From Artocarpus heterophyllus (Eukaryota; Streptophyta; Magnoliopsida; Rosales; Moraceae), in the NCBI GenBank assembly GCA_025403435.1, contig CM046335.1, positions 12,058,776 to 12,122,775 on the forward strand: DNA of 64,000 nt, written 5' to 3'. Below the pieces are notes generated by a model that saw only the letters and a program-made list of their open reading frames with translations, did not search any database and was not told the origin of the DNA. A program made the translations under genes and the position numbers. Shown here piece by piece: positions 20,581-55,224 of the stretch. How positions within the stretch are numbered: position 1 is the first letter of the stretch; each line of letters begins with the position of its first letter.

Positions 20581-21428
20581 CTAACTCATTTCCTGATGAA
20601 GTTGGTTTCCAGATGGAGAAGAGCGCAAGAATGATTCATAGGGATCTTGGAATGCAGGTCCTCCCTGCCAAGGAAAAATAACACATTCTTTTTGTAAAAT
20701 ATGCATATTATTAGATTCAATGAAACATAAAATATGCATTGTAAGAAACTAATAGATTAGTACCTGAAAATGAGTACTAGCTGAGAAACCTTGTGAGTAA
20801 TCTAGGACACTCTCCATTGATCCTTGGTTATTTGTCAGAGCAAAGTCCTGCTGCCAAATTACCCAACAAAATCAATATCCTCATCATTATCATTACTTGC
20901 AAAACCATATAAAATTTCAAAAAAAAAAAAGACAGAGAAAAATATAATGCTTACCAAATTATTGGATTTGGAGAAGTTGAAGACCGGAGAGCTAGCAGTG
21001 TCGTCTAGAAAATTACTAGATGCTAAGCCCTGCTGATGATGATCATCTTTCATTTTCTGCCGTTTTTTCCCAGTACTGTTCTCGGACAACTTAATATCAT
21101 CCTTGGAGGTATCAGGAAAAAAGCAATGCTGCTTGTTATTATTATTATCGTCATTCAAGTGAAAAACTTGATTACGATCTTCATGGAAATGTAACGGAGG
21201 CCCAGAAGACGCATCAGAAACCATCGAAAGATCTTCCTCTTCTTCTTCATCTTCATCTTCCTCTTCTTTGATTCCCTTCTCTTTATTATGTCCAATAATA
21301 TTTTTGCAAATATTGCCACTTTTCCCACTTCGCTTATGCGAAGCATTCGGAGAAAGGAGTGATTGTTCTAAGTATAGAGTCCAACCAGACTCGCAGCCAC
21401 TACTGCATTCCGAATCCAAAAAGTTCAT
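20581..21428 (-). CDS. SOFL: SOB FIVE-LIKE (SOFL) protein
   Basis: Three exons, 20955-21428, 20764-20850 and 20581-20664, all phase 0 with GT-AG introns, give 214 aa. SOFL proteins are small plant-specific nuclear/cytosolic factors; in Arabidopsis, overexpressed members raise cytokinin levels and activity. Both family motifs are present: motif A as SSGCESGWTLYL (residues 9-20) and motif B as SMVSDASSGPP (68-78). Between them is an acidic run (54-66). A basic stretch GKKRQKMK (120-127) could act in nuclear import. An Asn-rich linker and a C-terminal tail with FALTNNQGSMESVLDYS follow. The exon 2 acceptor reads GGCAGCAG, a tandem NAGNAG site, so forms with and without Gln159 may coexist. The leader is a long GA-rich tract (CT-rich on the plus strand, 21575-21628). 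A sibling number (for example SOFL4/5) cannot be fixed without alignment. Confidence 0.92.
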
Positions 21429-21574
21429 TCTTTTCTTCTTCTTTTTTTTTGTATTTTTTTATTTTATTTTTTGGGTCTTGTTTTCTTCAAAGAAAACCAA
21501 ACAAACCCGAATGAAATTTCTCCTCTACAAACCTCCCTTGTATGAAGTATGGAAGAGAGATAAATTGATAAGAA

Positions 21575-34793: not shown

Positions 34794-35700
34794 TCAAAGC
34801 GTCAAGAGAAAGAGAGCTTGACTTACGAAACAAAGCCTTCCCTTGATAAGCACCTTAAGAGCCAGAGCCTGGTTTGCAATGTGCCAAGGTCCCTCTTCTA
34901 ACACCCAATCCCTGGTTCGGTTGTTTGGAAATTTGAACACCCCAAAATCTTTATCAGCTGCCATAACTTCAACTGATCCATCACGTCCCCAAAGCATGTT
35001 TGCAACATTGTAAACAAGGCTATATTTAGGATTTTTCCTAAATATTTGCCCTACAAGACAGCTATCCCAATGCTGGATCCCTTCTTGAATAACTTCTTTA
35101 GGTGGTTTCACCACTTTTTGACCTCCAATTTCAGTTGGTTTGTAATATTCCAGTAATTGGTTATTTGATGATTCATCAAACAGAGACCTTCATCCAGTGA
35201 TTGCAGAATTATGACTTTGTTGAGAAAAAGAATTTGTAACTACCTCCATTGCAGGGTTGGTTACTGAGTTGAAATTAACTGTCACTGAATCCTCACGCGC
35301 GAGTAATCCTCACGCACTTCTGCAACAGGGCCTTTCCCTTGCAAGATAGCTTTCTTCAATGGAGGGAATGTCTGAGAATCACCAATCTTGGGGCAAGATT
35401 CTGTTTCAGAGGAATTTAAAAGAATCGAACTACCCGAACCTATACTTTTGTGAAAAAGACTAAATGTTGGATGACCTAGAGTCAAGGCCTTTATTCATGC
35501 TTGTATGGCCCACGCAGCCTATTTTCCACACCATTGTGTTGCAATTGACCAAAACTTCAAGGGACATGGGAGCATTTACCCATTGTTATTCCAATTCAAG
35601 GCGTTACTCGTTTCATTTTTTATTCCCTCTTTCTTTCTAGAGTTAGGGAGGCCATAGTGAAAGCCTTTTCAGCAAACTCTTTCTGCTTCTGTTTTTGAAT
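34794..35700 (-). pseudogene. LINE-associated DUF4283 protein fragment
   Basis: On the minus strand, 34794-35114 encodes a segment with the DUF4283 hallmarks: a W..CLVG.IF opening, LWG..GSVEV, F.V.KF....RDWVLEEGPWHIANQALAL. DUF4283 is found in the ORF1/gag-like proteins of plant L1-type LINEs and related genes. The upstream part (to ~35700) is open only in pieces and carries a second frame at 35282-35485, so the reading frame is broken. The copia element is inserted immediately beyond it at 35704/35705. This is a dead LINE fragment and not a cellular gene. Confidence 0.6.
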
Positions 35701-35704
35701 CTAG

Positions 35705-37739
35705 TATTAGACATGTATGCCCTAGGGAGTAAAAATGTAATAAGTTTTTGGAGACATTTTTTATCAATAAAGAATTTATTCATTATTTATACCAAATCTT
35801 GTCCTCTTTACGTTCATATTTGTTGAATGTATGTTAAGCAAATAATAGTCTGAGACTGTCGGTCTAAACCTTAAGAATTGGATATATGATGGATGGATTA
35901 TACGAAAGACACGATTCTTAAGGTGATGGTCTAAATCATACGATCCGCAATCAAGGGAATAAAGTTGGGCGCCTTATTCATGCAAAGATTGTTATGTTGT
36001 CTATATCCCTTTTGGGAGATGGTTTGTCTTGACCATCGGAGATGGACTCTATGAATAGAAACATTGGCATGTTGTCATAGGTGACAATATGTTGGATCGG
36101 GACATAAAGTGAATTGATTTGGATTAATAATTCTGTCTCGTCAAATTGATTCACTTTAGACAATTATTTGTGTTGTATCTTAATCCTGAGATGAATAATG
36201 GGCCCGTTGTCTTGACTTATGTCTTTTGATGTACCAAAAGGTGATACCCACATCTTAATAGTGGTATGCATGCCAGTACGTTGGAGGCATGGCTCTTGAT
36301 GGCGTAGACTTGTTATTCATAGATATGGAATCCATAGCTCCTCTTTAGAAGTGATGATATCCTCTTATATGCGTTATCCTGCAATTGAAAAACTGAAGCC
36401 CTCAACCATTTGGATACATAAGTGTAACCGAATGGTATACTATCTTTGGATAGTAAGTTTTCTGATGGTGAGATGATGGAACGTAAGATAAAAATAATCG
36501 GGAAGGTAAGACAAAACTTGTCCTTAAGCCGATTATGGATTATCATATGGGGATACAATACACTATGATATGTCATTGAGACTTGGCTATACGGGCTTCG
36601 TAATTCTATGTAGTTCGAGAGTGCAGCTCCAAGCTTTTAGTGGAGTAGTGTTGGAGTTGATAATTATGAAATGTATATATGGGATATTGGGTTCATGATT
36701 ATCAGGAGCTTGAACTATATAGGTCTATTTGGTCCCCTTTGCTGGCTCACAAAATCCTATAACGACACGACGTGCTTTTTCAATAATTGGTGACTTATGT
36801 TGGATTTATCAGATTGGTTAAATTTGGAAGAATTAAATAATTCATGTCTGTTTATCGGTTGAATTAATTTTGTAATAAAATTAATTCAAGATAAACTTGT
36901 TGAATTATTGGGATCGGATAATTCTTGTTTGTTATCGGTTGATTTAATTGGATAAATTAGATTAAGATAAACTTGTAGAATTATTGTGAATTGATTTATT
37001 TTCTTAGAGATTATCTTGATAAAGTTGTTTTGATCAGATAACTTCTCTATTGGATTATTTGAATTAAAACTAAGACTTTATCTTATAGAATCTCGGGTAA
37101 AAAATAAAAGATTCGCGGAGATATTTACGCGGCAATTCGGCCTACCGATCTACGTGTTTGGCCTGCCGATCAGGATGTTCGGCCTGCCGATCAAGATGTT
37201 CGGCCTGCCGATCAGCGAGAGATAAGATTACACGTTTTCACACGGATCTTATCAGATATTGATCCAAACTTGATTCTATTTCAAGTTTTTGAGACCTAAT
37301 CTGATAAAGTTTGACCCTATGACCAATCGCTATATAAAGGGAGTAAGTCTCATGAGTTACTTAGATTAGTTGAGAGATTAAGAGTGATACTCTATTGGTG
37401 AGCATCTGAAAACTCCCTGAGAGCTTTTGTTCACGAATCACGAACACTTACTTTGGGTTCTCTCGATTGGTTGGAAGGAGAGTCACCGGTGAAAGAGCTA
37501 TACGTGTGAGCCCACACTTACTCCGGTCGTGGATAGAGAATAGCAAAGAAGACCAGTTGGTTGAGGCTCTTCTAGAACGTCACTTCTCTTCACGGATTAC
37601 GGAGGTTCTTCGACACACAAAGGTTAGTAAGATCTGTTTAATTTATACATATAGCATGTCAAACTTGTGTTTTAGAAAATACTCTAATGTTAAAATTTTT
37701 AAAATTCCTGCTACATACCTCACACTATTTTTTCCAATA
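35705..37739 (+). repeat. 5' LTR of the copia element
   Basis: 2035 bp. It starts TATTAGACATG where the 3' LTR has TGTTAGACATG, and ends CCAATA where the 3' LTR has CCAACA, so both termini have mutated since insertion. TATATAAAGG at 37331-37340 is the likely promoter TATA. A 4 x 21-bp repeat lies upstream of it at 37136-37219. Confidence 0.9.
37136..37219 (+). repeat. 4 x 21-bp dyad-containing tandem repeat in copia 5' LTR
   Basis: Four consecutive 21-bp units each begin TTCGGCCTGCCGATC or a one-base variant. TCGGCnnGCCGA is a perfect dyad. The repeat sits about 110 bp upstream of the LTR TATA box. The 3' LTR has only three units (54642-54705). Confidence 0.85.
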
Positions 37740-38343
37740 ATTGGTATCAGGGCCGTGGTTTTTACATAAAATTACGAGTTTGTGATCATACTATATGCAT
37801 AAATTTTGTGATCTTAATCGCTCTTATGCTTGAATTTTATTTTATAGAGAGTTGGCACTCTAGGTTTCTATATAATTATATGTTGTCATGGATTATGTGG
37901 TGAATATTCATTAATTAATTATGGTTGATTAAATTGTTATTTAATTATTTATTAATTAATTAATTTATGCTGGTTATGGTTCCTTAGAAGTTAGAATGTG
38001 TATCTAGGTTTTTCATGTAATTAGATGGCGGACTATCATCTCCGTCTATGAATTATTATTTAATTTTAAATTTATAAAAATTTTATAATTAAATAATTAT
38101 TCGGATTAAACGGAGCTAGAAAGCGGATTTAGAAGATGGATAATGGCGCACCCAGGTATTTCCTGAGTCTTTAATTTTATGTTTTTGAATTGTTGAAAAT
38201 AAAATTGATGAATTGCATTAAAATTGTATTTTATGGAATAAGAGATTTATGCTCGGTCGGCATGCCGAACCCTCTAGTTCGACAGGCCGTCAGTGGGGCA
38301 GAAATCAGGTGGCTCTGCCAATAGGCCAAACTTTCATGGGTCG
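37740..38343 (+). other. Copia primer site and leader, part 1
   Basis: Begins with the primer-binding site (TTGGTATCAGGGC) and continues as non-coding leader. Near its end, further dyads of the GGTCGGCATGCCGAACC and TTCGACAGGCCG type occur. The inner gypsy-type element is inserted at a GGTCG in this cluster. Confidence 0.7.
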
Positions 38344-40317
38344 TGTGACACCCGTTATTCTCCTAACGGGTATTGAGGTAATTAAATTAATTTTTAATGT
38401 ATAAAAAAAAATTGCTTTATTTAAATTTATTTTATAATATTTATTTTTATCTATTTTTAAATTTTCTAAAATTCTCCTATATTTATTTAGTATGATTACT
38501 AAAAAGTATTAGAACTTCTAATAAATCTCAAAAATGTCATATTGGCATTATGTGTGTTAAAGTCTTTAGATGAGACATAAGGATATATTTTCCAACTACT
38601 CTTGACCCTTATTTTCTTTATTTCCTCCGTGACATGCTTCAACATGTCTCCTCTATAATTGTTTCTATCACTTCTCTTCAAAGACTTCATCTTTTCTTCC
38701 TTTCTCTTCCACGGTTCCCACACTCTTCTTCTTATTTCTTTGCTGAAGCAAAATACTTAGAGAACTTCTTCAAGGCAGCCATAAAAATCAGCCACGATCA
38801 CCTCCATTTGAGCAAGAATTTCAGTCATACCGAACTAAAGGAACCTGTTTTGAAGCCATTTCAAGCTTCCAACTAACCATAATCCGAGGTTAGAATCTTA
38901 TGAACAAATTTAGTCTTTCATTTATAAATTTTCTTTTATACTAAAGGATTATTCAAATTTGCGTTCTTAAACCTAAGTATATGTTTGTTGCTATTTTGGA
39001 GCATATGTATGAAGTCTAAGTGTATATGCCCTAGACAGAAAATTTATATTGTTAAACTTTATAATACCTCTATGGGCAGTGGTTATTTCTTGAAATTCTA
39101 AGATTAAATTAAAATAAATTTTATGAATGTAGTTGTATGTTGTGCTTTAGTTTTAATTGTCCTTATGCACGCCTTAGGATCAAGGGAGTATGGAGCTAAC
39201 GTTAACTGATTCCAGGATTAAAAGATTGTTGATAAGCTTGAAAGGTAGGGATTCTATTACTCATCTTTTGTGAGGTTTTTATAGAATTAAAATTGATTGT
39301 TTTGCCGCAATATATATATCTCTATGTTGAACTGATATTATATGATTATCACATATGAAACTATGACATGGACTCGTCTTGTATTGTACGGCGAGGAACA
39401 TAATGAATTGACACATGTTATAAATTGAGAAGCATGGTTAGGAAAACTAACTCTATTAATAATGATTCAATATAGAGAAATTGTGAGACATGAAGAGGGC
39501 GACGGTTACGTCCTTGGGCATGAATACCCTAAAAGGTAAAATAGGGGGAAGGCGATGACGCTTCCTTGGGTTGAAAGTCCCAGAACACACTGTACAGGAA
39601 TCGACTTGGTGAGGACTCGGGGCTTGATGTCCCCTCACCGGAACACCCTTGGAATGTTTATAGGGTGATCAAGTGCGCCCATTTGGGTTTCGATGAGTTG
39701 AGTGATACTCAATTTAACATGGATACCTAGGAACAATGATAATTGGTAATATTTGTATAAATGTGTAATTATGACACTTGGTAATGATTAACTATGGTAT
39801 CCATAAGATGTGATCATAATAAACCTCATAATCTGGAATATGATGTAACTTATTAACCATGCAGGTTTTAATGTGGTAATGATAAAAACCTAAAGGTGAG
39901 TAATGGTTTTCTCTACTGAGCATAGTGTTGCTCATTCCCTTATGTTTATATCTTTTCAGGACTCACTAAGTGTGAGGTGGCTACGAGAAATATAGTTGAG
40001 GAAGTGATGTAGCTATATTACATTGGGACTGCTTCAATTGTTGAGAATGTTCTTCATGATAATGTAAGCATCAATTGTTACTTTCTGTGACTGTATTACA
40101 ATGTGTTGAGGGTTAAAATGATGATAACAACAGTTTATATTATTAAATTTAAGGTGCTACATTAAAACTGTGGTTTAATTGTCGTTTATATTTTTTTTTT
40201 TGAGTTGAGAGTTTTCATTTAAGTCCCGGGCAAATTTTATTTTTAAGGTTTTACTTTTATTATTTATTTTTATTTTATCTCATTAAAAACTGTTAACCCC
40301 CACATAGGGGCGTTACA
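38344..40317 (+). repeat. 5' LTR of the inner gypsy-type element
   Basis: 1974 bp from TGTGACACCC to CGTTACA, nearly identical to 44570-46542. Differences include a C/T in TTGCTTTATTT, an (AT)n length change near 39310, and several substitutions around 39640-39680. Open frames inside are repeated identically in the 3' LTR and are not genes. Confidence 0.95.
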
Positions 40318-41805
40318 GAATTTTTGGTATCAGAGCCTAGGTTCGGTTAACCTAGGGAGTGTAGCACCACTTTAAAAAAATATATTTTTGAGATGGTTTT
40401 GAAGTTGAATTTTCATTGTCATCATCAAAATGAACCTTCACATTGATTTATACAGTCTAGAAGGATGTAACATGGAAAGGCCATAGAATGAAAATATCAA
40501 TAGTTATATGAGTACAATAATTATATAGAAGGAAAGTATTAATAGTTATGAGGGAATGATAATTATATGGAATGAGTTTATAAGTAGATTGCTTATGAGA
40601 GATTCGTACAATATTAGGATCTATAAGCATATCTAATTCGTATAAACGATGAGAAATTCGTATAGATACGAGGATTTAAAAGCCTTTTGTCTCGTGAAAA
40701 ACAATAAGAAATATAAGGCTTGATTTATTGATTTTAAAGTTTGGCATAGATATGCCAAATTTTTCGTAATTGATTCAAACCTAAGTAATGATTATGTGTG
40801 GATTCGATGGAGCACATAAGTGTTAATGTCTTTTCTTAAAAGTTCTATATATTTGAGGAATATGATATAAGTTGGGAATCATGGTATTGAATCTTGAGAG
40901 AGATAAATGTTAGACTTTTGGTCTGTTGAGACTGTGTAAAGTCTAGAATACATGAATCTCAAAATTGGAATATTTTGTTACGTACATTGTATTTAAGTGT
41001 ATCAGTGAATCTTTTGGTTACCTAAGGTTTTGTTATATGAGGAAATTGTATATTGTATAAGTAGAATTGTGGGGATTGTAGATGTTCATAAGTAGTAACA
41101 TCTAGTGTCTTTGTTCATTGATATGGTCTACGTTGGAAGACGTAAATCGTATTGATTTCAAGGTTAGTCGCATTCTAAACCCTTGGTAGTAATGATGATG
41201 AATCCATTGATAGATGTTGAGTATTAGGAATAACATATGGGTGTATGTATTGTTCAATAAAGTTTTGATTAAAACAAAATCATTTGAGTTGCTGGAAGAT
41301 TGTGTTGTTATGAAATGATTTTAAATATCATTCAGGAAGATCCTTGTTGTCGTTAAATTAGATTTGTTGTTTATAGTTAACTTTATCTATAGTGGGCTTT
41401 GAATTGGGTTTAAGATTCATACGAATTGGTTTTCAATTTTATGTTTGTTATTTAACTCGTTCTAAATGTGTTAAGGCCGAAACAACCTGACCATTTTCAA
41501 CTAAGAACATTTGGGCCTAGTTCAAATCTTAAATCAGTTTGATTCACACTGTCTCTCCCACGTGGTCTCTATACGTGTCATATACAGTGGTTTAATCATT
41601 GTTTACATATACGTTTACTGTGCATAGGAGCTTATTTCTCTGAGTTCACTTTTTCTCTCTTAATTTGTTATTTTCTCTCTAAATCGCAAATCCACTTCTT
41701 TTTCATTAGAAATTCTTCTTTTCCTCTAAAAGAAGAAGGAATTCTAGGATTCTGCAATTTACTATCTTAATTTTTCCTTTCTATTTACTCTTCTTTCATC
41801 TCATC
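40318..41805 (+). promoter_or_regulatory. Leader of the inner element, upstream of the Cys-rich ORF
   Basis: A non-coding leader of about 1.5 kb. It starts with the primer-binding site (40325-40336) and shows no gag similarity. The last ~190 bp (about 41610-41805) changes to a pyrimidine-rich, TTCTCTCT-laden sequence ending CTTTCATCTCATC just before the ATG at 41806, resembling the 5' untranslated leader of a plant gene. Possible TATA-like strings (CATATAC) lie at about 41579-41610. An internal promoter is inferred, not shown. Confidence 0.45.
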
Positions 41806-42327
41806 ATGGACCCAAAGTACCAACACATGAGAAAGTATTTCCCATCACTCTCCCAAAAGATTCTCAGAAAGAAATATAAGGCTAGAATTACTCGGTTGTG
41901 GATTCTTATGCGTTTTGGCATCCCTTGTGATGTGAGAATGTTGATAGAGGGGAAGATCCGTCCGAGTGACTTTAGTCAAGATGTCGGTTTACCAGGAACA
42001 GGTACCAGTCGTAGTGCAATGAAAAGAAGAGCCCGTGCCATCGTGGTCGCTTGTAACAAATGTGGAAGACAAAATTGTAACGGTAAATGTACTTCACCTG
42101 GTTATATGTCTACGAATAGAGAGGATAAAATAAGGTTTTGTAGGGATGGACTTTCAAAGGAGAACTTGGATAGCATCCATCCTCCTCTCCACGGTCACCC
42201 TAGTGGATATGTTCAAGGAGCTATTTTTAAACTCTGGCCTAAATTTTATACAGAAAGACAACGCCTTAGGAATATGGTATTTCTAGATCCTGTTTGTCAA
42301 GCCATAAGAAAACTGGATGGGGAATAA
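41806..42327 (+). CDS. Cys-rich, basic, carlavirus NABP-like protein
   Basis: An intact intronless 173-aa ORF inside the inner retroelement. N-terminal residues 20-50 are basic with helical character (RKKYKARITRLWILMRFGIP, then DVRMLIEGK). The core is GTGTSRSAMKRRARAI (64-79), an arginine-rich patch, directly followed by four cysteines C83, C86, C91 and C95 (CNKCGRQNCNGKC), a probable zinc-binding knuckle. A G-x-G-x-S/R, basic patch, CxxC order preceded by a 'GIP.DV' segment is what I know from the nucleic-acid-binding proteins of carlaviruses and related flexiviruses, which bind nucleic acid and in some cases act as suppressors or transcription factors. The C-terminal 75 residues resemble nothing I recognise. 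The viral link is inferred from motif order. A host zinc-finger origin is the alternative. Confidence 0.62.
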   Translation: MDPKYQHMRKYFPSLSQKILRKKYKARITRLWILMRFGIPCDVRMLIEGKIRPSDFSQDVGLPGTGTSRSAMKRRARAIVVACNKCGRQNCNGKCTSPGYMSTNREDKIRFCRDGLSKENLDSIHPPLHGHPSGYVQGAIFKLWPKFYTERQRLRNMVFLDPVCQAIRKLDGE

Positions 42328-42970
42328 GTCATCGCCCTATAAAGGTTATTTAGTCTTTACTTATTTGAAGCAATTTTAGCTGATGTTCAACAGTTTGTGT
42401 TTTTCTTTTACTCAGAATATTTGCTTTTGTGTTTGAAATAATTGTGATTATTAGATTGATACAGTAAGTGTTAATATCTTATTTAATTTATGATTTTCTT
42501 AAATATATATATAATAAAATATATTATCTTATCAGACACGTCACATACGGTACAGTAATATGTTTGAATTTTGAAAAGCTTATCCAGATATTTCAAGATT
42601 TGTGTCTCAAATTTCAAAAGTTCTACAGTATTTGTCGTTTATATTAAATTTCTAGACTTGGTGTATATTTGTCAAAAAGTCTACAGTTGTGTCATGAGGG
42701 TCTTCTGTCGAATTGTTCTCAATTGTCAAAAGTTATACAATTAGAGTCTAATCTTTTTCAAAAAGTGAATCAGATTTTCTGTAAACTATCAATCACCTTA
42801 TCTTACTTTCTTATCCGCACAAGATTTTGTTTAAATCTTTGGATTACCTTTTCATTACCTACTCGTCTATCTCTTTAGCCCTTTTTGTATATTTCTCATC
42901 TTTAAAATCTCATGTAGAACCCGAAGTCTAAGTGGAGCAGACATTAAGCAACCACTTCTATAAACCAAAT
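42328..42970 (+). other. Spacer between the two cargo ORFs
   Basis: 643 bp, AT-rich, no ORF of note, and no splice signals that would clearly join the two ORFs. The end, from about 42800, is again pyrimidine-rich (CTTTTCATTACC, CTCGTCTATCTC), similar in style to the leader before the first ORF. Confidence 0.5.
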
Positions 42971-43621
42971 ATGTCTACCTCCCAATCCACGAAGAAAATA
43001 AAGAATGTCTGTGTCTTTTGTGGTTCCAGCCTTGGAAAAGATAAAGCTTATTTAGAAGCTGCAAATCACTTAGGGCAAGTCCTAGCACGCAAGAAGATTA
43101 ACATAATCTATGGGGGTGGTAGTATAAAAATGATGGTAAATATGGCACTAGCAGCTAGGTCTAGCGACGCTACTGATGTAAGAATTTGGCCTCATATTCC
43201 AGTTGAAGGAAACCTTTGTAAGGAAGCCATAGGTAAGGGAGAAGGAGTCAGGAGTATCCCTAAAAATTTTAAAGACATAATCTATAATTCTGATGCTTTT
43301 ATAGCATTACCTGGTGGTCTAGGTACTCTTGAGGAAATATTTATAGTTGCTTGTGGGCAATTGTTGGGCTTTTATTCCAAACCTTTGGGACTGCTGAACG
43401 TAAAGGGTTTTTATGACGGTCTTTTGAAATTTCTAGATTACGCTGTGGAAGAAAACATCACTACAGAATCGGAGAGACAAATCCTTGTCACTGCTTCAAC
43501 AGCTGAGGAATTGATAGATAAAATGCAAATCATACATCCAGAATCCGACACTGCAACATCCAAGCTTGAATGGGAAAGGGAAAGCCGGGAGCGGCCAATT
43601 GATTTGAATCTCCATCTGTAA
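42971..43621 (+). CDS. LOG: LOG-like (LONELY GUY) phosphoribohydrolase homologue
   Basis: An intact intronless ORF of 216 aa from the ATG at 42971 (the frame extends upstream to a GTG at 42932). LOG enzymes hydrolyse cytokinin riboside 5'-monophosphates to active cytokinins; family length is ~210-230 aa. Landmarks in order: VCVFCGSS (13-20), YGGGSIKMM (47-55), DAFIALPGGLGTLEE (108-122), KPLGLLNVKGFYDGLL (137-152), and a C-terminal helix with ASTAEELIDKM. Oddities: the usual GGGSxGLMG loop is GGGSIKMMV, PGGYGT is PGGLGT, and the segment normally carrying the catalytic Arg (M-H-x-R-K) reads IPKNF, placing Asn99 at the Arg position. The PGGxGTxEE Glu is kept. It may be catalytically weak, altered or non-catalytic. 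Plant LOG genes have several introns, so an intronless copy inside a retroelement suggests capture through an mRNA. Confidence 0.85.
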   Translation: MSTSQSTKKIKNVCVFCGSSLGKDKAYLEAANHLGQVLARKKINIIYGGGSIKMMVNMALAARSSDATDVRIWPHIPVEGNLCKEAIGKGEGVRSIPKNFKDIIYNSDAFIALPGGLGTLEEIFIVACGQLLGFYSKPLGLLNVKGFYDGLLKFLDYAVEENITTESERQILVTASTAEELIDKMQIIHPESDTATSKLEWERESRERPIDLNLHL

Positions 43622-44569
43622 TCTTTTTGTTTTATCTTTGGCATGTAGGCATGTGTGTCCGTATTTCGTGTGTTACGAATAACCGTTTGCCTTGTATTAT
43701 GTGTTTCTTGTGGTACGTCGTTGTTAAATCTTTTAGATTCATTGAGCCTAATGCCGGGATGGCTGGATACGGAGTACTTGATGCTCTCGAAACGCATCTT
43801 TCTTAAGGTCCGATCTTTTGTTTATCGATGTTTTTGTATCCTCTAAGCATGCATGATATGGATAGCTGGTATACGGAGTGCCTTGTACTCTCGAAACGTA
43901 TCCGCATCATGTTTGTAATGTGTAATATTCTGTTAATATTATGTGGAAGTACCAAAGTCAGTTATGGGGATATTCCATATGAGTATATTATTTGGATTGA
44001 ATGTTTGTGTCATGAGGATAGCTGTTTAATGAAAAATATGTCGGGTATGTTTGCAACTCTGAGATTCCGTTTAATATCTCTATGAATAAGTTTAATGTAT
44101 GGTTTTGAATATAAGTGTTTGTGATATATGTTTTATGATTATGTTTTAGTTTATTAGTTGAGGTATGAAATCAAATATATTTGACTTTTCCTTACTCAAA
44201 AAGGAAAAGGAACCTAAAGATGAAGTATATAAAATTTCTCTGGCAATCTCCTTAAATGTGATTGTAAATCACAGTCCATGGACAATGAAGGACTGGAATC
44301 ATGATATGGTCAATATGTATGCCTGATCAGATTCTTAGACTATTATATGGTGTTATAAGTTGAAACTCGTCAGAAATACTCTCATTGAGGGATTTAGGAG
44401 TAAGATTTATTATGCAAGTAAATGAGTGGAGATACGATAACTTAAATTTGGAGGACAAACAACATTAACGGTTTAGACTCGGAATTGGAATCATAATGGA
44501 ATTAAAATTTTTACTAATATTGCTAGAATTGAAATTTCGAGGACGAAATTTCTTTAAGGGGGGTAGAGC
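43622..44569 (+). other. 3' non-coding region with hairpin pair, then polypurine tract
   Basis: It contains two imperfect copies of a ~39-bp unit (43761-43798 and 43864-43902), each able to fold through GGATACG/CGTATCC-like arms. A third possible stem (TATTTCG...CGAATA) lies at about 43661-43681. The far end carries the polypurine tract TTTAAGGGGGGTAGAG (about 44553-44568) that primes plus-strand synthesis. No protein similarity seen. Confidence 0.55.
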
Positions 44570-46542
44570 TGTGACACCCGTTATTCTCCAACGGGTATTG
44601 AGGTAATTAAATTAATTTTTAATGTATAAAAAAAAATTGCTTCATTTAAATTTATTTTATAATATTTATTTTTATCTATTTTTAAATTTTCTAAAATTCT
44701 CCTATATTTATTTAGTATGATTACTAAAAAGTATTAGAACTTCTAATAAATCTCAAAAATGTCATATTGGCATTATGTGTGTTAAAGTCTTTAGATGAGA
44801 CATAAGGATATATTTTCCAACTACTCTTGACCCTTATTTTCTTTATTTCCTCCGTGACATGCTTCAACATGTCTCCTCTATAATTGTTTCTATCACTTCT
44901 CTTCAAAGACTTCATCTTTTCTTCCTTTCTCTTCCACGGTTCCCACACTCTTCTTCTTATTTCTTTGCTGAAGCAAAATACTTAGAGAACTTCTTCAAGG
45001 CAGCCATAAAAATCAGCCACGATCACCTCCATTTGAGCAAGAATTTCAGTCATACCGAACTAAAGGAACCTGTTTTGAAGCCATTTCAAGCTTCCAACTA
45101 ACCATAATCCGAGGTTAGAATCTTATGAACAAATTTAGTCTTTCATTTATAAATTTTCTTTTATACTAAAGGATTATTCAAATTTGCGTTCTTAAACCTA
45201 AGTATATGTTTGTTGCTATTTTGGAGCATATGTATGAAGTCTAAGTGTATATGCCCTAGATAGAAAATTTATATTGTTAAACTTTATAATACCTCTATGG
45301 GCAGTGGTTATTTCTTGAAATTCTAAGATTAAATTAAAATAAATTTTATGAATGTAGTTGTATGTTGTGCTTTAGTTTTAATTGTCCTTATGCACGCCTT
45401 AGGATCAAGGGAGTATGGAGCTAACGTTAACTGATTCCAGGATTAAAAGATTGTTGATAAGCTTGAAAGGTAGGGATTCTATTACTCATCTTTTGTGAGG
45501 TTTTTATAGAATTAAAATTGATTGTTTTGCCGCAATATATATATATCTATGTTGAACTGATATTATATGATTATCACATATGAAACTATGACATGGACTC
45601 GTCTTGTATTGTACGGCGAGGAACATAATGAATTGACACATGTTATAAATTGAGAAGCATGGTTAGGAAAACTAACTCTATTAATAATGATTCAATATAG
45701 AGAAATTGTGAGACATGAAGAGGGCGACGGTTACGTCCTTGGGCATGAATACCCTAAAAGGTAAAATAAGGGGAAGGCGATGACGCTTCCTTGGGTTGAA
45801 AGTCCCAGAACACACTGTACAGGAATCGACTTGGTGAGGACTCGGGGCTTGATGTCCCCTCACCGAAACACCCTTGGAATGTTTAGAGGGTAATCAAGAG
45901 CGCCCATTTGGGTTTTGATGAGTTGAGTGATACTCAATTTAACATGGATACCTAGGAACAATGATAATTGGTAATATTTGTATAAATGTGTAATTATGAC
46001 ACTTGGTAATGATTAACTATGGTATCCATAAGATGTGATCATAATAAACCTCATAATCTGGAATATGATGTAACTTATTAACCATGCAGGTTTTAATGTG
46101 GTAATGATAAAAACCTAAAGGTGAGTAATGGCTTTCTCTACTGAGCATAGTGTTGCTCATTCCCTTATGTTTATATCTTTTCAGGACTCACTAAGTGTGA
46201 GGTGGCTACGAGAAATATAGTTGAGGAAGTGATGTAGCTATATTACATTGGGATTGCTTCAATTGTTGAGAATGTTCTTCATGATAATGTAAGCATCAAT
46301 TGTTACTTTCTGTGACTGTATTACAATGTGTTGAGGGTTAAAATGATGATGACAACAGTTTATATTATTAAATTTAAGGTGCTACATTAAAACTGTGGTT
46401 TAATTGTCGTTTATATTTTTATTTTTGAGTTGAGAGTTTTCATTTAAGTCCCGGGCAAATTTTATTTTTAAGGTTTTACTTTTATTATTTATTTTTATTT
46501 TATCTCATTAAAAACTGTTAACCCCCACATAGGGGCGTTACA
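44570..46542 (+). repeat. 3' LTR of the inner gypsy-type element
   Basis: 1973 bp, from TGTGACACCC to GGCGTTACA, followed by the target duplication GGTCG at 46543-46547. Nearly identical to 38344-40317. Confidence 0.95.
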
Positions 46543-46983
46543 GGTCGGTAGGCCAATCTTTTCGATCAGTAGGCCGATGAAGCATGACCGACAGGCCGAT
46601 CACCCAAATCGGCCTGCCGACCGAGAACTTAAAAATTTCCAGAAAATGTGCAATTTTTGAAGTACAGTTTTAATTTTATTTATGAGACGATTCTGAGAAA
46701 CATTAAATTTGGATATGACTAGAAGTATGAAGTATTTGATTCATACAGGATTGAAGGCTTGAAGATGAAAATTACATGAAAAATGATACAACTTGAGGAT
46801 TCAAGGATGAAGAATCGATATATGTCTCGATTATTCTCTTGTAAACTTAGTTTTCTATTCTCTAGGGTGGAACCATAATATTTCGGTAATTATTATTTTG
46901 CTTGTAGCTTTGCTTGTCTGCATTATAATATGATTTGCCATGTATATTGATAACATGTCAAATAGAATAGGAAGTGCCGCTCA
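46543..46983 (+). other. Copia leader, part 2, with dyad cluster
   Basis: Resumes the copia leader after the inner element. Within 46543-46625 there are five further TCGG/CCGA motifs (GGTCGGTAGGCC, CAGTAGGCCGATG, GACCGACAGGCCGATC, ATCGGCCTGCCGACCG). The first hAT element begins at 46984. Confidence 0.7.
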
Positions 46984-47808
46984 TAGGGATGAACGGCGGG
47001 CGGTTTAATGGTTTTTGGGCGGGTGAGGTGCAGTTTTTTTGGATGGCAGGTTGGCGATTAACCAACCCGCAAACCGCCCACCACATGGCGGGTGGTTTCA
47101 GTTTGATTTTGGGTGGTTACGGGCGGGTTGAGGCGGTTTAGGCCTATGCTATTGTCCAATGTAATTTTTAGGACCTTTTTTTTAGAAAGTGAAGAAAATT
47201 TGTAGAAAATATAAGATGATAATACATAAAGCATTCCCAACAAGTTTGATGCTTAAAGACAATGACCATATTCAAAAGTACAAATTAAGAAACATAATCA
47301 TTCACTGCAACAAGAAACATCAACTACAGATGAAGTGATGAACAAAGTCAAGAGTCCATAAAGATTAAAGCCTATTCACTGGGTTCAAAAATAATAGAAT
47401 GCTACAAATAAAATGATGAACAAAGTCAAGTGTTCTTTTTCTTTTAGGGCTTTCTCTACTAACTTATTTGATTTGAATTTTGATTACTTCACAAAATAAA
47501 AGAAGAATTTCCAATTTTTAATATGTCAAGAGCCAGCCGAGCCAGTGCTTGGAGTGTTGGATTGTTCAATCATCTCTAAAATAAGAACAAAATCAAATAA
47601 ATGATAAGTTTTTTTTAAAATATATAGGCAGACGGGTGCGGGTTGAACCCGCCCTAAAAAACTTAAAACCAAGCCCGCCCATCGAATATATTGGTAGGTG
47701 GGTGAACCCGCCCACCAGTGGGTTGCTAACGTAAACTTGCTTTTTTCGAGATGGGCAGGTGTTGGCGTGGGCGATTGGCGGGTGTGGGGTGATTTTTGTA
47801 CAGCCCTA
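46984..47808 (+). mobile_element. Non-autonomous hAT element, copy 1
   Basis: 825 bp with an exact 8-bp target duplication GCCGCTCA (46976-46983 and 47809-47816). The terminal repeats are TAGGGATGAACGG on the left and TAGGGCTGTACAA (reverse complement) on the right. Subterminal regions are full of GGCGGGCGG/CCGCCC motifs. There is no transposase. This matches the hAT pattern (8-bp duplication, TAGGG-type ends). Confidence 0.88.
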
Positions 47809-47816
47809 GCCGCTCA

Positions 47817-48246
47817 TATTAAAATTATTCAAGCACAATTTTAAAATAAAACCTTGATTTCAAAAGATTGAGTGGGAGAAGGTTTTCGAAGAGAGAACCT
47901 AAGGCCTCCATCGTTGGTCCATAGGAAGAATATGGTGGTCTCGACCCCTAGGAAGGGATTTCTATCATGTACCAGATTGGATCTCTGAGAGGATAAGATA
48001 TTTTAGCATGATTTATGGTTACACACCCCTAGGTGGTGATTATAAATCATGGATAAAATATTGAAACAATGGTTATACACTCACGTTAATTTTATTATTA
48101 ACCTCCCCTAGGAGCTCTGTTAATAAAATTAATGGCCAAAAAAATGATTATTAATATATGCTGGATCAGACGGGTCTTGGATGGCATATATTAATCAGGA
48201 GGGGATCCGTGTTCCTGATTGAATTTGGCATGACTCCCCTAGGAGC
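47817..48246 (+). other. Copia leader, part 3, with CCCCTAGG repeats
   Basis: Non-coding leader with the octamer CCCCTAGG at 47945, 48026, 48105 and 48236, the first three spaced about 80 bp apart. CCTAGG is palindromic. It is bounded by the two hAT elements. Confidence 0.6.
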
Positions 48247-49072
48247 TAGGGCTGTACAAAAACTGCCCCGCACCCGCCAACCGCCCACGCCCGCGCCCAC
48301 CCATCTCAAAAAAAGCGGGTTTACGTTAGCAACCCACTGGTGAGTGGGTCCAATATATTCGGTGGGCGGGTTTGGTTTTAAGTTTTTGAGGGCGGGTTCA
48401 ACCCGCACTCGCCCGCCTATATATTTTTTTAAAAAAACTTATCATTTATTTCATTTTGTTCTTATTTTAGAGATGATTGAACAATCCAACACTTCAAGCA
48501 TGGGCTCGGCTGCCTCTTGACATATTAGAAACTGAAAATTCTCTTATTATTTTGTGAAGTGATCAAAATTCAAATCAAGTAAGTTAGTAGAAAAAGCCCT
48601 AAAAGAAAAAGAACACTTGACTTTGTTCATCATTTCATTTGTAGCATTCTATTATTTTCGAACCTAGTGAATAGGCTTTAATCTTTATGGACTCTTGATT
48701 TTATTCATCACTTTATATGTAGTTGATGTTTCTTGTTGCAGTGAATGATTATGTTTCTTAATTTATACTTTTGAATATGGTCACTGTCTTTAAGCATCAA
48801 ACTTGTTGGGAATGCTTTATGTAATATCATCTTATATTTTCTACAAATTTTCTTCACTTTCTAAAAAAAAGGTCCAAAAAATTACATTGGGTAATAGCAT
48901 AGGTCTAAACCGTCTCAACCCGCCCGCACCCGCCCGCAACCACCCAAAACCAAACCAAAACCGCCCGCCATGTGGTGGGCGGTTTGCGGTTTGGTTAATC
49001 GCCAACCCGTCATCCAAAAAAACTGCACCGCACCCTTCCAAAAACCATCAAACCGCCCGCCGTTCACCCCTA
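48247..49072 (-). mobile_element. Non-autonomous hAT element, copy 2, inverted
   Basis: 826 bp, flanked by CTAGGAGC (48239-48246) and CTATGAGC (49073-49080), an 8-bp duplication with one mismatch. The ends read TAGGGCTGTACAA and, from the other side, TAGGGGTGAACGG. It is the reverse-orientation relative of 46984-47808 along its whole length, and its short open frames are not genes. Confidence 0.87.
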
Positions 49073-50156: not shown

Positions 50157-50204
50157 GGATTCAAAGAAACGAAAAGTCTGCTTCATGAAGACTTTACACT
50201 TCGG

Positions 50205-51656
50205 ATGGGCGATGGATCCTTGGTCTCAGCGGAAGCAGTGAGAGACGTCCATCTTTACTTTGATAACTATAGGAATTTATTTTTGCAAGATTGTTTTTAT
50301 GTTCCTAAATTTAAAAGGAATTTAATTTCTGTATCTTGTTTATTTAAAGACTCTTACGTGGTATCTTTTAATGAAAAAATGATGATTCATAAAAACAAAT
50401 CTTTTATCTGTTCTGGATGGAAGCAAAATAATCTATATTTTATCAAGCCTCAGATGGACTTATTGCTTAATGCTGAGATGAATGATAATAACTCTAGAAG
50501 ACTTAAAACTGCTCACTCTAATAAGACTTATCTTTGGTATTTGCGCCTTGGTCACATTAACCTGAATAGGATTCAAAGGTTGGTAAGGGATGGACCTTTA
50601 AGTCACTTAAAGGTGGAATCTATACCTCAATGTGAATCTTGTTTGGAGGGTAAAATGACCAAAAGACCATACGGGTCTAAAGGCAATAGGGCCGAAGGGG
50701 TTCTAGAACTTGTGCATAGTGATGTTTGCAGACCGATGAACATCCGGGGACGAGAAGGGTATGAGTACTTCGTCACTTTTATTGATGATTACTCAAGGTA
50801 TGGGTATGTGTACCTGATGCACCACAAAAGCGAAACTTTTGACAAGTTTTGGGAGTTTTGAGCTAAAGTGGAAAAACAATTGGGTAGACCCATAAAGGCA
50901 CTTCGATCCGATCGAGGTGGAGAATACCTTTCTGATGAATTCTTGGGACACTTGTTAGAGAATGATATTTTATCCCATTTGATTGCGTCGGGCACTCCGC
51001 AGCAGAATGGCGTAGCAGAGAGAAGAAATAGGACTTTGTTGGACATGATTAAGTCTAAGATGAGTTATTCATCATTACCTTTATCCTTTTGGGGATATGC
51101 ACTAGAAACTGCATATTATCTTTTGAACAATGTGCCTTCAAAATCGGTCCCTAAAACTCTTCATGAGTTGTGGACAAGAAGGAAGACATCCTTAAACCAT
51201 ATTCGTATATGGGGATGTCCGGCTCATGTCCTGTTTAAGGATTTGAATAAGTTGGAAGCACGTTTAGAAGTTTATGTGTTTGTAGGATATCCAAAATGGA
51301 CTAAAGGGGGTTATTTTTATAGCCCAAAGGAAAATAAAGTCGTTGTTTCAACTAATGCAACTTTCCTTGAGGAGAGTTATATGGACGACTTTAAACCTCG
51401 AAGCAAAGTGGTGCTTGAGGAGTTAAGGAGTGATCTGATCACTCCGAAGGTTCCAAACGAAACCATTCCGATCAGTGTAGAAAAACCAAACGAACCTGAG
51501 CAACGACCTAAGGGGCTTCGGCGTAGTGGGAGGATCGGGTGTCAACCTGAGAGATATATGTTCATTGGAGAGGTCTTCTTGGCTGAACCGAATGAACATG
51601 ACAGGGATCCTTATACTTATGCAGAAGCTATGGAGGATGTTGATTCAAAACTCTAG
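50205..51656 (+). pseudogene. Copia integrase, degenerate
   Basis: A GAG-pre-integrase domain (LGHINLNRIQRL, CESCLEGKM) leads into the DDE core: HSDVCRPM, FVTFIDDYSRYGYVYLM, SDRGGEYLS and GTPQQNGVAERRNRTLLDM. The frame is broken by a TGA at 50859-50861 between the first two catalytic aspartates region and the Glu motif, and the second frame ends at 51654. Confidence 0.9.
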
Positions 51657-53165
51657 ACATAGGCCATGAACATAGAGATGAAGTCTATGGAGACTAATCA
51701 GGTCTGAAAGCTTGTGGATCTTCCCGAAGGTATAACACCCATAGGGTGTAAGTGGATCTATAAGAGGAAAAGAGGAGTGGATGGAAAGGTTGAAACCTTT
51801 AAGGCTAGACTGGTAGCTAAGGGTTATACGCAAAAGGAAGGAATCGATTACAAAGAAACCTTTTCGCCTGTAGCCATGCTTAAGTCCATCAAGATTCTCT
51901 TGTCCATAGCTGTCGCTCTCGACTTCGAGATTTGACAGATGGATGTCAAGACGGCTTTTCTGAATGGCTATCTTGATGAGTCCATTTATATAGAACAACC
52001 AGACGGGTTCAAGGTCACAGGTCAATAGGGTAAAGTTTGTAAGCTGTTAAAGTCAATTTATGGACTTAAGCAGGTTTCTCGTTCTTGGAACATAAGATTT
52101 GATCAAGTGATCAAGACTTATGGGTTCTCATAAAATGTGAATGAGCCATGTGTTTACAAACACATAAAGGACGGGAATGTGGTTTTTCTACTGCTTATGT
52201 AGATGACATTTTGCTAATTGGCAATGATGTTGGGGTGTTGTCATCGGTCAAATTATGGTTGACCAAGCAGTTTGACATGAGGGACTTGAGTGAGGCTAAT
52301 TTTGTTCTCGGTATCCAGATCTTTCGGGATAGGAAGAACAAGATGATAGCTTTGTCACAGGCTAGCTACATAGATAAAATTCCCAGGAGGTTTGCAATGC
52401 AAGATTCCAAGAAAGGTTGGCAACCATCTAGGTCTGGAATTATTCTTTCTAAGAAAGACTCTCCAAAGTCTTATGAAGAAAGAGAATACATGAAGAAGGT
52501 GCCTTATGCTTCAATAGTAGGTAGTCTCATGTATGCCATGCTTTGTACACGACTGGATATTAGCTATGCAGTCGGGATTGGTCGGGATTGTAAGTCGATT
52601 TCAGGTGGATCCAGGACCGAACCACTGGGTTGTGGTAAAGTATATTTTCAAGTACCTACGAAGGACTCAAGGGTATATGCTTGTATATTCGGGCGAGGAC
52701 CTGACTCCTCTAGGATATACTGATTCAGATTTTCAATCTTGTCTGGATTCTAGGAAATCAACTTCGGGTTTTGTGTTTACTCTAGGCGGCGATGCCATTA
52801 CTTGGAGAAGTGCTAAGCAAGATTGCACTTCAGATTCAACGATGGAGGCCGAGTATGTGGCAACTAGTGATGCTTCAAAAGAAGTAGTGTGGCTCCGCAA
52901 GTTCCTTGGGGATCTTGAGGTTGTTCCTGGCATGGATAAGGCGGTATCACTGTACTGTGATAACAGTGGGCGGTAGCTAATGCTAAGGAACCAAGATTTC
53001 ATAAGAACAGTAAACATATTGATCGGAAGTATCATGTGATAAAGGACTTCGTTGAGGGCGGGCATGTCACGCTATGCAAGATTGCGTCAGAGGACAATTT
53101 AGCTGATCCATTTACGAAGAAACTTACTAGGAGAGTCTTCGAGAGGCATGTGGAAGCTATGGGGA
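51657..53165 (+). pseudogene. Copia reverse transcriptase and RNase H, degenerate
   Basis: RT landmarks are present: [44 protein letters not shown], and the catalytic YVDDILLIGND. RNase H follows (GYTDSDFQSCLDSRKSTSGF, DSTMEAEYVA, CDNSG). In-frame stops occur at about 51706, 51933, 52027 and 52130, plus a frameshift near 52560, so no functional polymerase can be made. Confidence 0.9.
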
Positions 53166-53208: not shown

Positions 53209-55224
53209 TGTTAGACATGTATGCCCTAGAGAGTAAAAATGTAATAAGTTTTTGGAGACATTTTTTATCAATAAAGAATTTATTCATTATTTATACCAAA
53301 TCTTGTCCTCTTTACTTTCATATTTGTTGAATGTATATTAAGCAAACAATAGTCTGAGACTGTCGGTCTAAACCTTAAGAATTGGGCATATGATGGACGG
53401 ATTATGCGAAAGACACGATTCTTAAGGTAATGGTCTAAATCATACGATCCGCAATCGAGGGAATAAAGTTGGACGCTTTATTCATGCAAAGATTGTTATG
53501 TTGTCTATATCCCTTTTGGAAGATGGTTTGTCTTGACCATCGAAGATGGACTCCGTGAATAGAAACATTGGCATGTTGTCATAGGTGACAATATGTTGGA
53601 TCGGGACATAAAGTGAATTGATTTGGATTAATAATTCTGTCTCATCAAATTGATTCACTTTAGACAATCATTTGTATTGTATCTTAATCTTGAGATGAAT
53701 AGTGGGTTCGTTGTCTTGACTTATGTCTTTTGATGTACCAAAGGGTGACACCCACATCTTAATAGTGGTATGCATGCTGGTACGTTGGAGGCATGACTCT
53801 TGATGGCGTAGACTTGTTATTCATAGATATGGAATCCATAGCTCCTCTTTAGGAGTGATGATATCCTCTTATATGCGTTATCCTGTAATTGAAAAACTAG
53901 AGCGCTCAACCATTTGGATACATAAGTGTAACCGAATGGTATACTATCTTTGGATAGTAAGTTTTCTGATGGTGAGATGATGGAACGTAATATAAAAATA
54001 ATCGGAAAGGTAAGACAGAACTTGTCCTTAAGTCGATTATGGATTATCATATGGGGATATGATACACTATGATATGTCATGGAGACTTTACTATACGGGC
54101 TTCGTAATTCTATGTAGTGCGAGAGTGCAGCTCCAAGCTTTTAGTGGAGTAGCTTTGGAGTTGATAATTATGAAATGTATATTTGGGATATTGGGTTTCA
54201 TGATTATCGAGAGCTTGAACTATATAGGTCTATTTGGTCCCCTTTGTTGGCTCACAAAATCCTGTAACGACACAGCGTGCTTTTTCAATAATTGGTGACT
54301 TATGTTGGATTTATCAGATTGGTTAAATTTGGAAGAATTAAATAATTCATGTCTGTTTATCGGTTGAATTAATTTTGTAATAAAATTAATTCAAAATAAA
54401 CTTGTTGAATTATTGGGATCGGATAGTTCTTTTCTGTTTATTGGTTGATTTAATTGGATAAATTAGATCAAGATAAACTTATAGAATTATTGTGAATTGA
54501 TTTATTTTCTTAGAGATTATCTTGATAAAGTTGTTTTGATCAGATAACTTCTCTATTGGGTTATTTGAATTAAAACTAAGACTTTATCTTATAGAATCTA
54601 GGGTGAAAAATAAAAGATTCGCGGAGATATTTACGCAGCAGTTCGGCCTACCGATCTACGTGTTCGGCCTGCCGATGGGGCCTGTTCGGCCTGCCAATTA
54701 GCGAGAGATAAGATTACACATTTTCACACGGATCTTATCAGATATTGATCCAAACTTAATTCTGTTTCGAGTTTTTGAGACCTAATCTGATAAAGACTGA
54801 CCCCGGGACCAATTGCTATATAAAGGGAGTAAGTCTCATGAGTTACTTAGATCAGTTGAGAGATTAAGAGTGATACTCTATTGGTGAGCATCTGAAAACT
54901 CCCTGAAAGCTTTTGTTCACGAATCACGAACACTTGCTTTAGGTTCTCTCGATTGGTTGGAAGGAGAGTCACCGGTGGAAGAGCGTACGTGTGAGCCCAC
55001 ACTCACTCCTATCGTAGATAGAGAATAGCAAAGAAGACCAGTTGGTTAAGGCTCTTCTGGAACGTTACTTTTCTTCACGGATTGCGGAGGTTCTTCGGCA
55101 CACAAAGGTTAGTAAGATCTGTTTAATTTATACATAGAGTATGTCAAACTTGTGTTTTAAAAAATACTATGATCTTAAAATTTTTAAAATTCCCGCTGCG
55201 CACCTCACACTGTTTTTTCCAACA
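53209..55224 (+). repeat. 3' LTR of the copia element
   Basis: 2016 bp, TGTTAGACATG to TTTTTTCCAACA, with intact TG/CA ends and followed by the target duplication TCTAG (55225-55229). TATA motif TATATAAAGG at 54817-54826. The 21-bp repeat is reduced to three units at 54642-54705. Confidence 0.92.

Follow-up and report, generated by a model that had tools for sequence, protein, structure and literature searches.

A non-autonomous LTR retrotransposon family of Artocarpus heterophyllus with a virus-type cysteine-rich protein and a LOG-fold protein in place of gag-pol

Dasheng, with RIRE2, is an example of a non-autonomous long terminal repeat (LTR) retrotransposon, and the interiors of one class of such elements, the large retrotransposon derivatives (LARDs), are usually described as non-coding. 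LARD-type elements have LTRs, a primer site and a purine tract, lack reverse transcriptase and are moved in trans, and their interior is characterized as 'not necessarily coding' (PMC6431247). The element with which we are concerned occupies positions 38344-46542 of a 64,000-nucleotide stretch of the Artocarpus heterophyllus genome (the window: contig CM046335.1, assembly GCA_025403435.1, positions 12,058,776 to 12,122,775). It has the LARD's LTRs, primer site, purine tract and long interior without gag-pol, but the interior is not of the non-coding kind: two open reading frames (ORFs) in it encode conserved proteins, ORF1 a 173-residue four-cysteine protein of the Carla_C4/Viral_NABP type and ORF2 a 216-residue protein with the LOG fold. 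The non-autonomous LTR retrotransposon family to which this copy belongs is large and young, and selection has acted on ORF1 while the family propagated.

Two Athila-like elements with similarity to LOGL4 were reportedly noted by Steinbauerova in 2011. LOG (YgdH) ORFs are reported in plant Ty3/gypsy elements of Citrus and Populus (PMC9289625, citing Steinbauerova 2011); the window element resembles these in having a LOG-type ORF in an LTR element and differs in that LOG is paired with a virus-type protein, gag-pol is absent, the ends are of the Tekay type, and the proposed catalytic Arg and prenyl pocket have been lost. The recurrence of one type of accessory gene across unrelated retroelements, which the two-gene cassette shares, is known from the ORF3 types of bdelloid rotifers, but those are single accessory genes beside gag and pol, whereas the cassette is a gene pair next to which no reverse transcriptase was seen (PMC5408684). 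Sunflower Tekay elements have, in 5' additional ORFs, a conserved extra protein for which a silencing role has been suggested; it is a different protein, with no known domain reported, and its elements retain gag-pol (PMC11728184). Outside the retroelements, the nearest likeness is to the Carla_C4 and Viral_NABP proteins of betaflexiviruses, which have four cysteines and a basic patch in common with ORF1; most members of the ORF1 family match both models, while ORF1 is set apart by being carried by plant retroelements and by the helical N-terminal part of its structure model. Cysteine-rich proteins of allexiviruses act as silencing suppressors (PMC12389679), and some carlavirus entries among the structural matches of ORF1 are named silencing suppressors.

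The original prediction, which was made from the letters of the window alone, knew of no described family with this gene pair. Neither the ORF1-LOG pair nor a virus-type nucleic-acid-binding ORF in plant LTR elements was found in the literature searched (PMC7264820, PMC6317226, PMC6431247, PMC6338049, PMC2714080 and PMC3136472 among others, most subscription papers being outside reach), but LOG ORFs in LTR elements were already known (PMC9289625). The kind of element is known, a non-autonomous LTR element with additional ORFs; the pairing of a virus-type protein with LOG would be the new part.

The 5' LTR (38344..40317; 1,974 bp; TGTGACACCC...GGGCGTTACA) and the 3' LTR (44570..46542; 1,973 bp) stand between the two copies of a GGTCG target-site duplication (38339..38343 and 46543..46547). 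GAATTTT follows directly on the 5' LTR and is followed in turn by the primer binding site TGGTATCAGAGCC (40325..40337), which we take to be of the Met-tRNA type that is associated with chromoviruses; the polypurine tract AAGGGGGGTAGAGC (44556..44569) abuts the 3' LTR. The 4,252-bp interior is made up of a leader region without a long ORF (40318..41805), ORF1 (41806..42327), an interval that serves below as a non-coding control (42328..42970), ORF2 (42971..43621, with its start ATG at 42971) and a 3' interior, again without a long ORF (43622..44569). All of these parts lie on the plus strand, the sense strand of the element, and both ORFs are intact. No other stop-to-stop frame of the interior exceeds 127 residues, and no Pfam match to a gag or pol domain was obtained in four interior frames. 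With its two matching LTRs and the duplicated target, and with a primer site as well as a purine tract, the element is an LTR retrotransposon. Termini and primer site fit a Tekay chromovirus, but the gag-pol with chromodomain is absent from the interior; an Athila-type element with a LOG ORF is no fit, the primer site being TGGTATCAGAGCC instead of TGGCGCC and gag being missing. In all of this anatomy (LTRs, duplication, Met-type primer site, purine tract, two intact sense ORFs, no gag-pol) the original prediction was exact to the base. The two LTRs are 99.34% identical (Kimura two-parameter distance 0.0066; 13 substitutions, of which 9 are transitions and 4 transversions, and one indel), which at substitution rates of 1.3e-8 to 4e-9 per site per year places the insertion at about 0.25 to 0.8 million years ago.

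The 985-Mb assembly was searched for further copies with a 1-kb piece of the leader (40400-41400), a probe that leaves the ORFs free to vary among the copies chosen. It gave 40 scored matches, the window included, all at least 98% identical; 20 of the 39 other copies were examined at element length, and the ORF region alone for 19. Each ORF region was found in 38 of the 39. At element length ORF1 is present in 20 of 20 copies, and ORF2 and the same order of parts in 19, one of which has an internal deletion inside ORF2; the one remaining copy is interrupted ahead of ORF2 by the insertion of a further family member. Over the 39 copies (and scoring three-base indels as breaks as well), ORF1 is free of stops and indels in 30, broken in 8 and absent from 1, and the corresponding numbers for ORF2 are 31, 7 and 1. 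A search with the ORF1 protein reaches at least 150 places in the genome; all those listed are at least 99% identical, and 149 of the 150 listed have no stop. The multi-copy family sharing both ORFs that the original prediction had asked for therefore exists on the strength of the 38 of 39 copies and the ORF1 places, and a one-off capture is rejected by the 40 leader matches and those same places.

Many of the copies are very young. LTRs were examined in 19 copies (L028 was left out); in 9 of them both LTRs could be delimited, with a divergence of 0 to 0.0036. Of these 9, 5 have an exact 5-bp target duplication and 3 a duplication with a single mismatch, while none could be recognised in the last. 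The LTRs of the remaining 10 copies are variant or are cut by the fetched stretch, their best pieces being 97.0 to 100% identical. Two LTR variants occur in the family (in L009, L011, L023 and L026, and in L012, L016, L021 and L022), with sequence unlike that of the window added near LTR position 780 or standing in place of positions 68-835.

What has kept the ORFs open was analysed by separating changes seen in a single copy (private, and so arising after insertion) from changes seen in several copies (shared, and so arising in the propagating lineage), against a null model in which the types of mutation and their CpG context are preserved. This comparison has 39 rows per ORF, with the window included, and draws on the leader-chosen copies; the 150 ORF1 places were left out of it because they had been chosen by protein similarity. 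Private changes in ORF1 are 35 changing and 12 silent (ratio 0.92), while shared changes are 9 changing and 16 silent (ratio 0.22, P 0.001), and the shared ratio stays below 0.3 under every setting tried, with P at most 0.018. For ORF2 the private changes are 24 and 10 (ratio 1.08), and the shared changes 9 and 10 (ratio 0.41, P 0.035). Nine pseudo-frames of non-coding sequence (leader, interval and 3' interior) give shared ratios of 0.53 to 1.79 at the default setting, eight of the nine without bias, the leader behaving as non-coding sequence should; the wrong frames of ORF1 and ORF2 have no significant depletion (ratios 0.86 to 3.5). Counted per site, shared variants are fewer in ORF2 (13/648) than in the non-coding interior (111/2,436; P 0.0023), but not in ORF1 (20/519; P 0.56). 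During propagation of the element, purifying selection preserves ORF1, which decays neutrally once a copy has inserted. The original prediction had read the intact ORFs as a sign of recent origin or of selection: selection holds, but recent origin alone does not suffice, since there is constraint on the shared mutations and the private ones look neutral.

The two genes also travel together outside the window family. Tomato LOG3 as query finds at least 150 intronless LOG frames across the genome, 44-52% identical among the matches listed, and in all eight LOG loci that were fetched (L048-L055) an ORF1 lies upstream on the same strand, 55-95% identical to that of the window. Two independent 150-row lists have at least 74 same-strand ORF1-LOG pairs in common, against 0.06 expected, with LOG downstream at a median gap of 652 bp and no listed pair reversed. 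The ORF1 query for that count was a distant homologue, P0002, so that the pairs come mostly from older families like that of L054 (ORF1 55% and LOG 51% identical to the window); pairing within the window's own family rests on the leader-chosen copies. L056, a copy of the L054 family, has a TGGCGCC primer site (TGGCGCCGTTGCCGGGGA), presumably of the Athila/Tat type, then a gag domain (PF03732, 4e-19) and then the cassette. Its match to an aspartyl protease is below Pfam's cut-off, and no reverse-transcriptase frame was seen in 9.9 kb (frames of at least 90 residues, six of them run through Pfam). The same gag-protease frames recur in two other copies, whose sequence upstream of the cassette is 95% identical to that of L056, so that three of three have them. 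L057, a copy of the L050 family, has no gag-pol frame in its 9.9 kb. The cassette is old and modular, its carriers including an element that differs in primer type and has gag-protease. Between the window element and L056, similarity is confined to the cassette and one 35-bp match just upstream of it, while the window element shares the 3' end of its interior with Tekay-type elements; most likely, therefore, the cassette has passed from one retroelement lineage to another, in either direction. Against L049, L051, L052 and L055, the window family is 90-95% identical in ORF1 and 67-72% in LOG, where dS is also higher; these unequal identities suggest recombination inside the cassette.

Comparisons between families, with dS from 0.74 to 2.4, give an omega of 0.11-0.23 in ORF1 and of 0.15-0.27 in ORF2 (Nei-Gojobori estimates with dS partly saturated and the stop codons of broken copies skipped, since several of the eight loci hold stops; ORF1 of L053 is covered over 77 codons only). 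ORF2 is likely to be constrained in the same way as ORF1, clearly so between families and marginally within the window family. The dN/dS below 1 on which the original prediction had staked the functionality of the cargo is thus seen in the shared ratio of 0.22 for ORF1 and in these omegas of both ORFs, and the neutrality that it had named as the contrary outcome is not what was found, clearly for ORF1 and marginally, within the family, for ORF2.

ORF1 is, judged by the Pfam matches of its group, related to the nucleic-acid-binding proteins of betaflexiviruses. The window protein alone scores 16.2 bits against Viral_NABP (cut-off 23) and matches no family at E<=0.01; at the same threshold the Carla_C4 model picks up 61, and the Viral_NABP model 59, of the 67 sequences in the alignment of the ORF1 family, the window sequence not being among the matching ones. 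The four cysteines of the finger (Cys83, 86, 91 and 95) are kept in 39, 38, 39 and 39 of 39 rows, and a basic patch accompanies them. No viral protein is among the named homologues in two lists (15 hits in one, and 120 listed of 855 in the other, most entries without an organism), the plants named being Hibiscus cannabinus, Xanthoceras, Populus, Acer, Rhamnella and Orobanche; two scans of IMG/VR contigs gave 54 and 65 pattern matches, none of them confirmed by tblastn as a close viral relative. Transfer may have gone in either direction, from virus to element or from element to virus.

The explanation that we favour, at slightly better than even confidence, is that this is a trans-mobilised family whose cassette works for the element, ORF1 acting on its own RNA and ORF2 as a partner that has nothing to do with cytokinin. 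An autonomous Tekay-type chromovirus would supply the proteins for packaging, copying and integrating the element RNA, and the conserved two-gene cassette occupies the place of gag-pol. ORF1 would bind the element's own RNA and might shield it from plant RNA silencing, as viral cysteine-rich proteins do; alternatively, it might bring the RNA into particles, standing in for the nucleocapsid of gag. ORF2 would be a nucleotide-binding or dimerising partner rather than a cytokinin enzyme. Selection on ORF1 in the absence of gag-pol makes most sense if the protein's main target is its own coding RNA: were the protein freely shared, each copy would be under weaker selection. The Tekay connection comes from the last 33-36 bases of the interior (44532..44567), which are 81-91% identical in three of three elements with SH3_Tf2-1, a motif by which we take them to be Tekay; these three, with open frames of 1,578, 1,554 and 1,098 residues, were drawn from at least 150 SH3_Tf2-1 matches listed.

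Several observations weigh against this explanation. The original prediction's parasite of an autonomous chromovirus has its Tekay-type ends, but the partner itself, with the window LTR, was not found at the 3' ends of the three elements. The structure model of ORF1 is weak (predicted local distance difference test score, pLDDT, 71.7; predicted template-modelling score, pTM, 0.45), and a Foldseek search of it against viral models (BFVD) has betaflexivirus proteins as its best matches at E values of 0.45 and 1.2, which are not significant (a 15-kDa protein of Cherry mottle leaf virus and an RNA silencing suppressor of Helleborus mosaic virus). The shared signal in ORF2 is marginal, with P 0.047 at the default, 0.051 without CpG and 0.121 if a variant must occur in three copies; over the 20 element-length copies these values become 0.107, 0.261 and 0.633 (ratio 0.93 in the last case). 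Among the controls, frame 0 of the 3' interior is likewise below 1 (ratio 0.53, P 0.028). Closer pairs of loci have higher omegas (0.18-0.62 for ORF1, 0.32-0.66 for ORF2), and on the branch of the window family omega for ORF2 is 0.51 (0.26-1.24) with one choice of loci for the comparison and 0.65 (0.32-2.04) with another.

A wider proposal, that the two proteins form a swappable module, an anti-silencing or RNA-packaging kit of retroelements without reverse transcriptase that is passed between unrelated LTR lineages, is a tentative one, to which we would give somewhat less than even credence.

The best of the competing accounts, in our estimate unlikely but to be taken seriously, makes the family a deletion derivative: an autonomous Tekay family would have had both gag-pol and the cassette, which served that autonomous element, and gag-pol would later have been lost. 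The Tekay-type 3' end and primer site agree with it, as do the open chromovirus-type frames of 1,554-1,578 residues in the genome and the gag-protease retained by the second cassette carrier. However, no long reverse-transcriptase frame lies beside the cassette at the loci examined (within flanks that ranged from 1.5 to 5 kb, and among frames of at least 80-90 residues), and older subfamilies, 86-91% identical in part of the LTR, already share the interior. The contrary case named in the original prediction, the window family's LTR joined to gag-pol, was seen in none of the three Tekay-type elements, too few to settle it.

That the plant keeps the proteins for its own benefit, for example as decoys against betaflexiviruses, so that selection acts on the host, is distinctly improbable. 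It would account for the similarity to virus proteins and for purifying selection, but with at least 150 near-identical ORF1 places the benefit of each copy to the host should be negligible, and private single-copy changes look neutral.

Less probable still is the reading offered in the original prediction, that the element spreads an active LOG enzyme that releases cytokinin and so influences cell division. ORF2 does match the LOG family (Pfam Lysine_decarbox, 1.3e-21) and has the LOG fold with its PGGxGTxxE motif, which reads PGGLGTLEE in nearly all copies, and its frame is open in 31 of 39; to that extent the LOG-type homologue of the prediction stands. The cytokinin site does not. Arg99 is the proposed catalytic residue of CgLOG, and Met96, His97, Lys100, Glu125 and Trp129 form its prenyl pocket (PMC4979012). 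At the position of Arg99 there is Asn in 38 of 38 readable rows, the window included; the five pocket residues have become Ile, Pro, Phe, Ile and Gly; and the GGGxxGLMG motif reads GGGSIKMMV. With the proposed catalytic residue and all five pocket residues lost, the idea of an effect on cell division through cytokinin is unsupported, and an active cytokinin enzyme in the window family is rejected on these predicted site losses. In a LOG tree of 116 of the 120 listed homologues, picked by length, and the window, ORF2 and P0016 share a stem of 1.19 changes per site, and the tree therefore does not place the source of ORF2 among plant LOGs. Captured passengers, intact only through the youth of their copies, are hardly credible: many copies are indeed very young, but neutral passengers are rejected, at least for ORF1, by the strong silent bias of shared changes (which private changes and eight of nine control frames at the default lack) and by the low omega between families at a dS of 0.74-2.4.

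The surroundings of the element in the window are those of a nested region. Two 2.0-kb direct repeats (35707-37737 and 53211-55222), 94% identical and probably the two LTRs belonging to an older nested element, enclose the element, copia pol fragments (50157-52720) and a large inverted repeat. The arms of the latter (46984-47810 and 48245-49072) are ~830 bp long and 90% identical, with a 434-bp spacer; it begins ~440 bp downstream of the element and, if transcribed, may form a long double-stranded RNA. Overlapping 38-nt repeats at 21-bp spacing (TTCGGCCTGCCGATCA..) lie at 37136-37215, and similar short GGCCTGCCGA motifs adjoin the insertion site. Farther upstream, all on the minus strand, are a frame with MNFLDSECSSGCESGWTLYLEQS (20862-21458) that resembles SOB FIVE-LIKE proteins, presumably cytokinin-related, and has no Pfam match at E<=0.01; a fragment of DUF4283 (34797-35189; 2.1e-9), a domain common in plant retroelement remnants; and a Pollen Ole e 1-like domain (2154-2585; 2.2e-6) that is probably an exon of a host gene.

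To our knowledge, the usual view is that nothing in a non-autonomous LTR element is of use to the element. In the abundant family described here, selection still maintains at least one, and probably two, of the element's own proteins. If the wider proposal of a swappable module is right, plant retroelements would include a satellite-like strategy in which a gene pair takes the place of gag-pol. Testable questions follow: whether parasitic retroelements have countermeasures of their own to plant silencing, how the nucleic-acid-binding proteins of betaflexiviruses are related to plant retroelements, and what becomes of a hormone enzyme after it has left its chemistry. In practical terms, the intronless LOG-like frames of this genome, at least 150 of them, are likely to inflate counts of LOG genes, and such frames in genomes of this sort should not be annotated as hormone genes.

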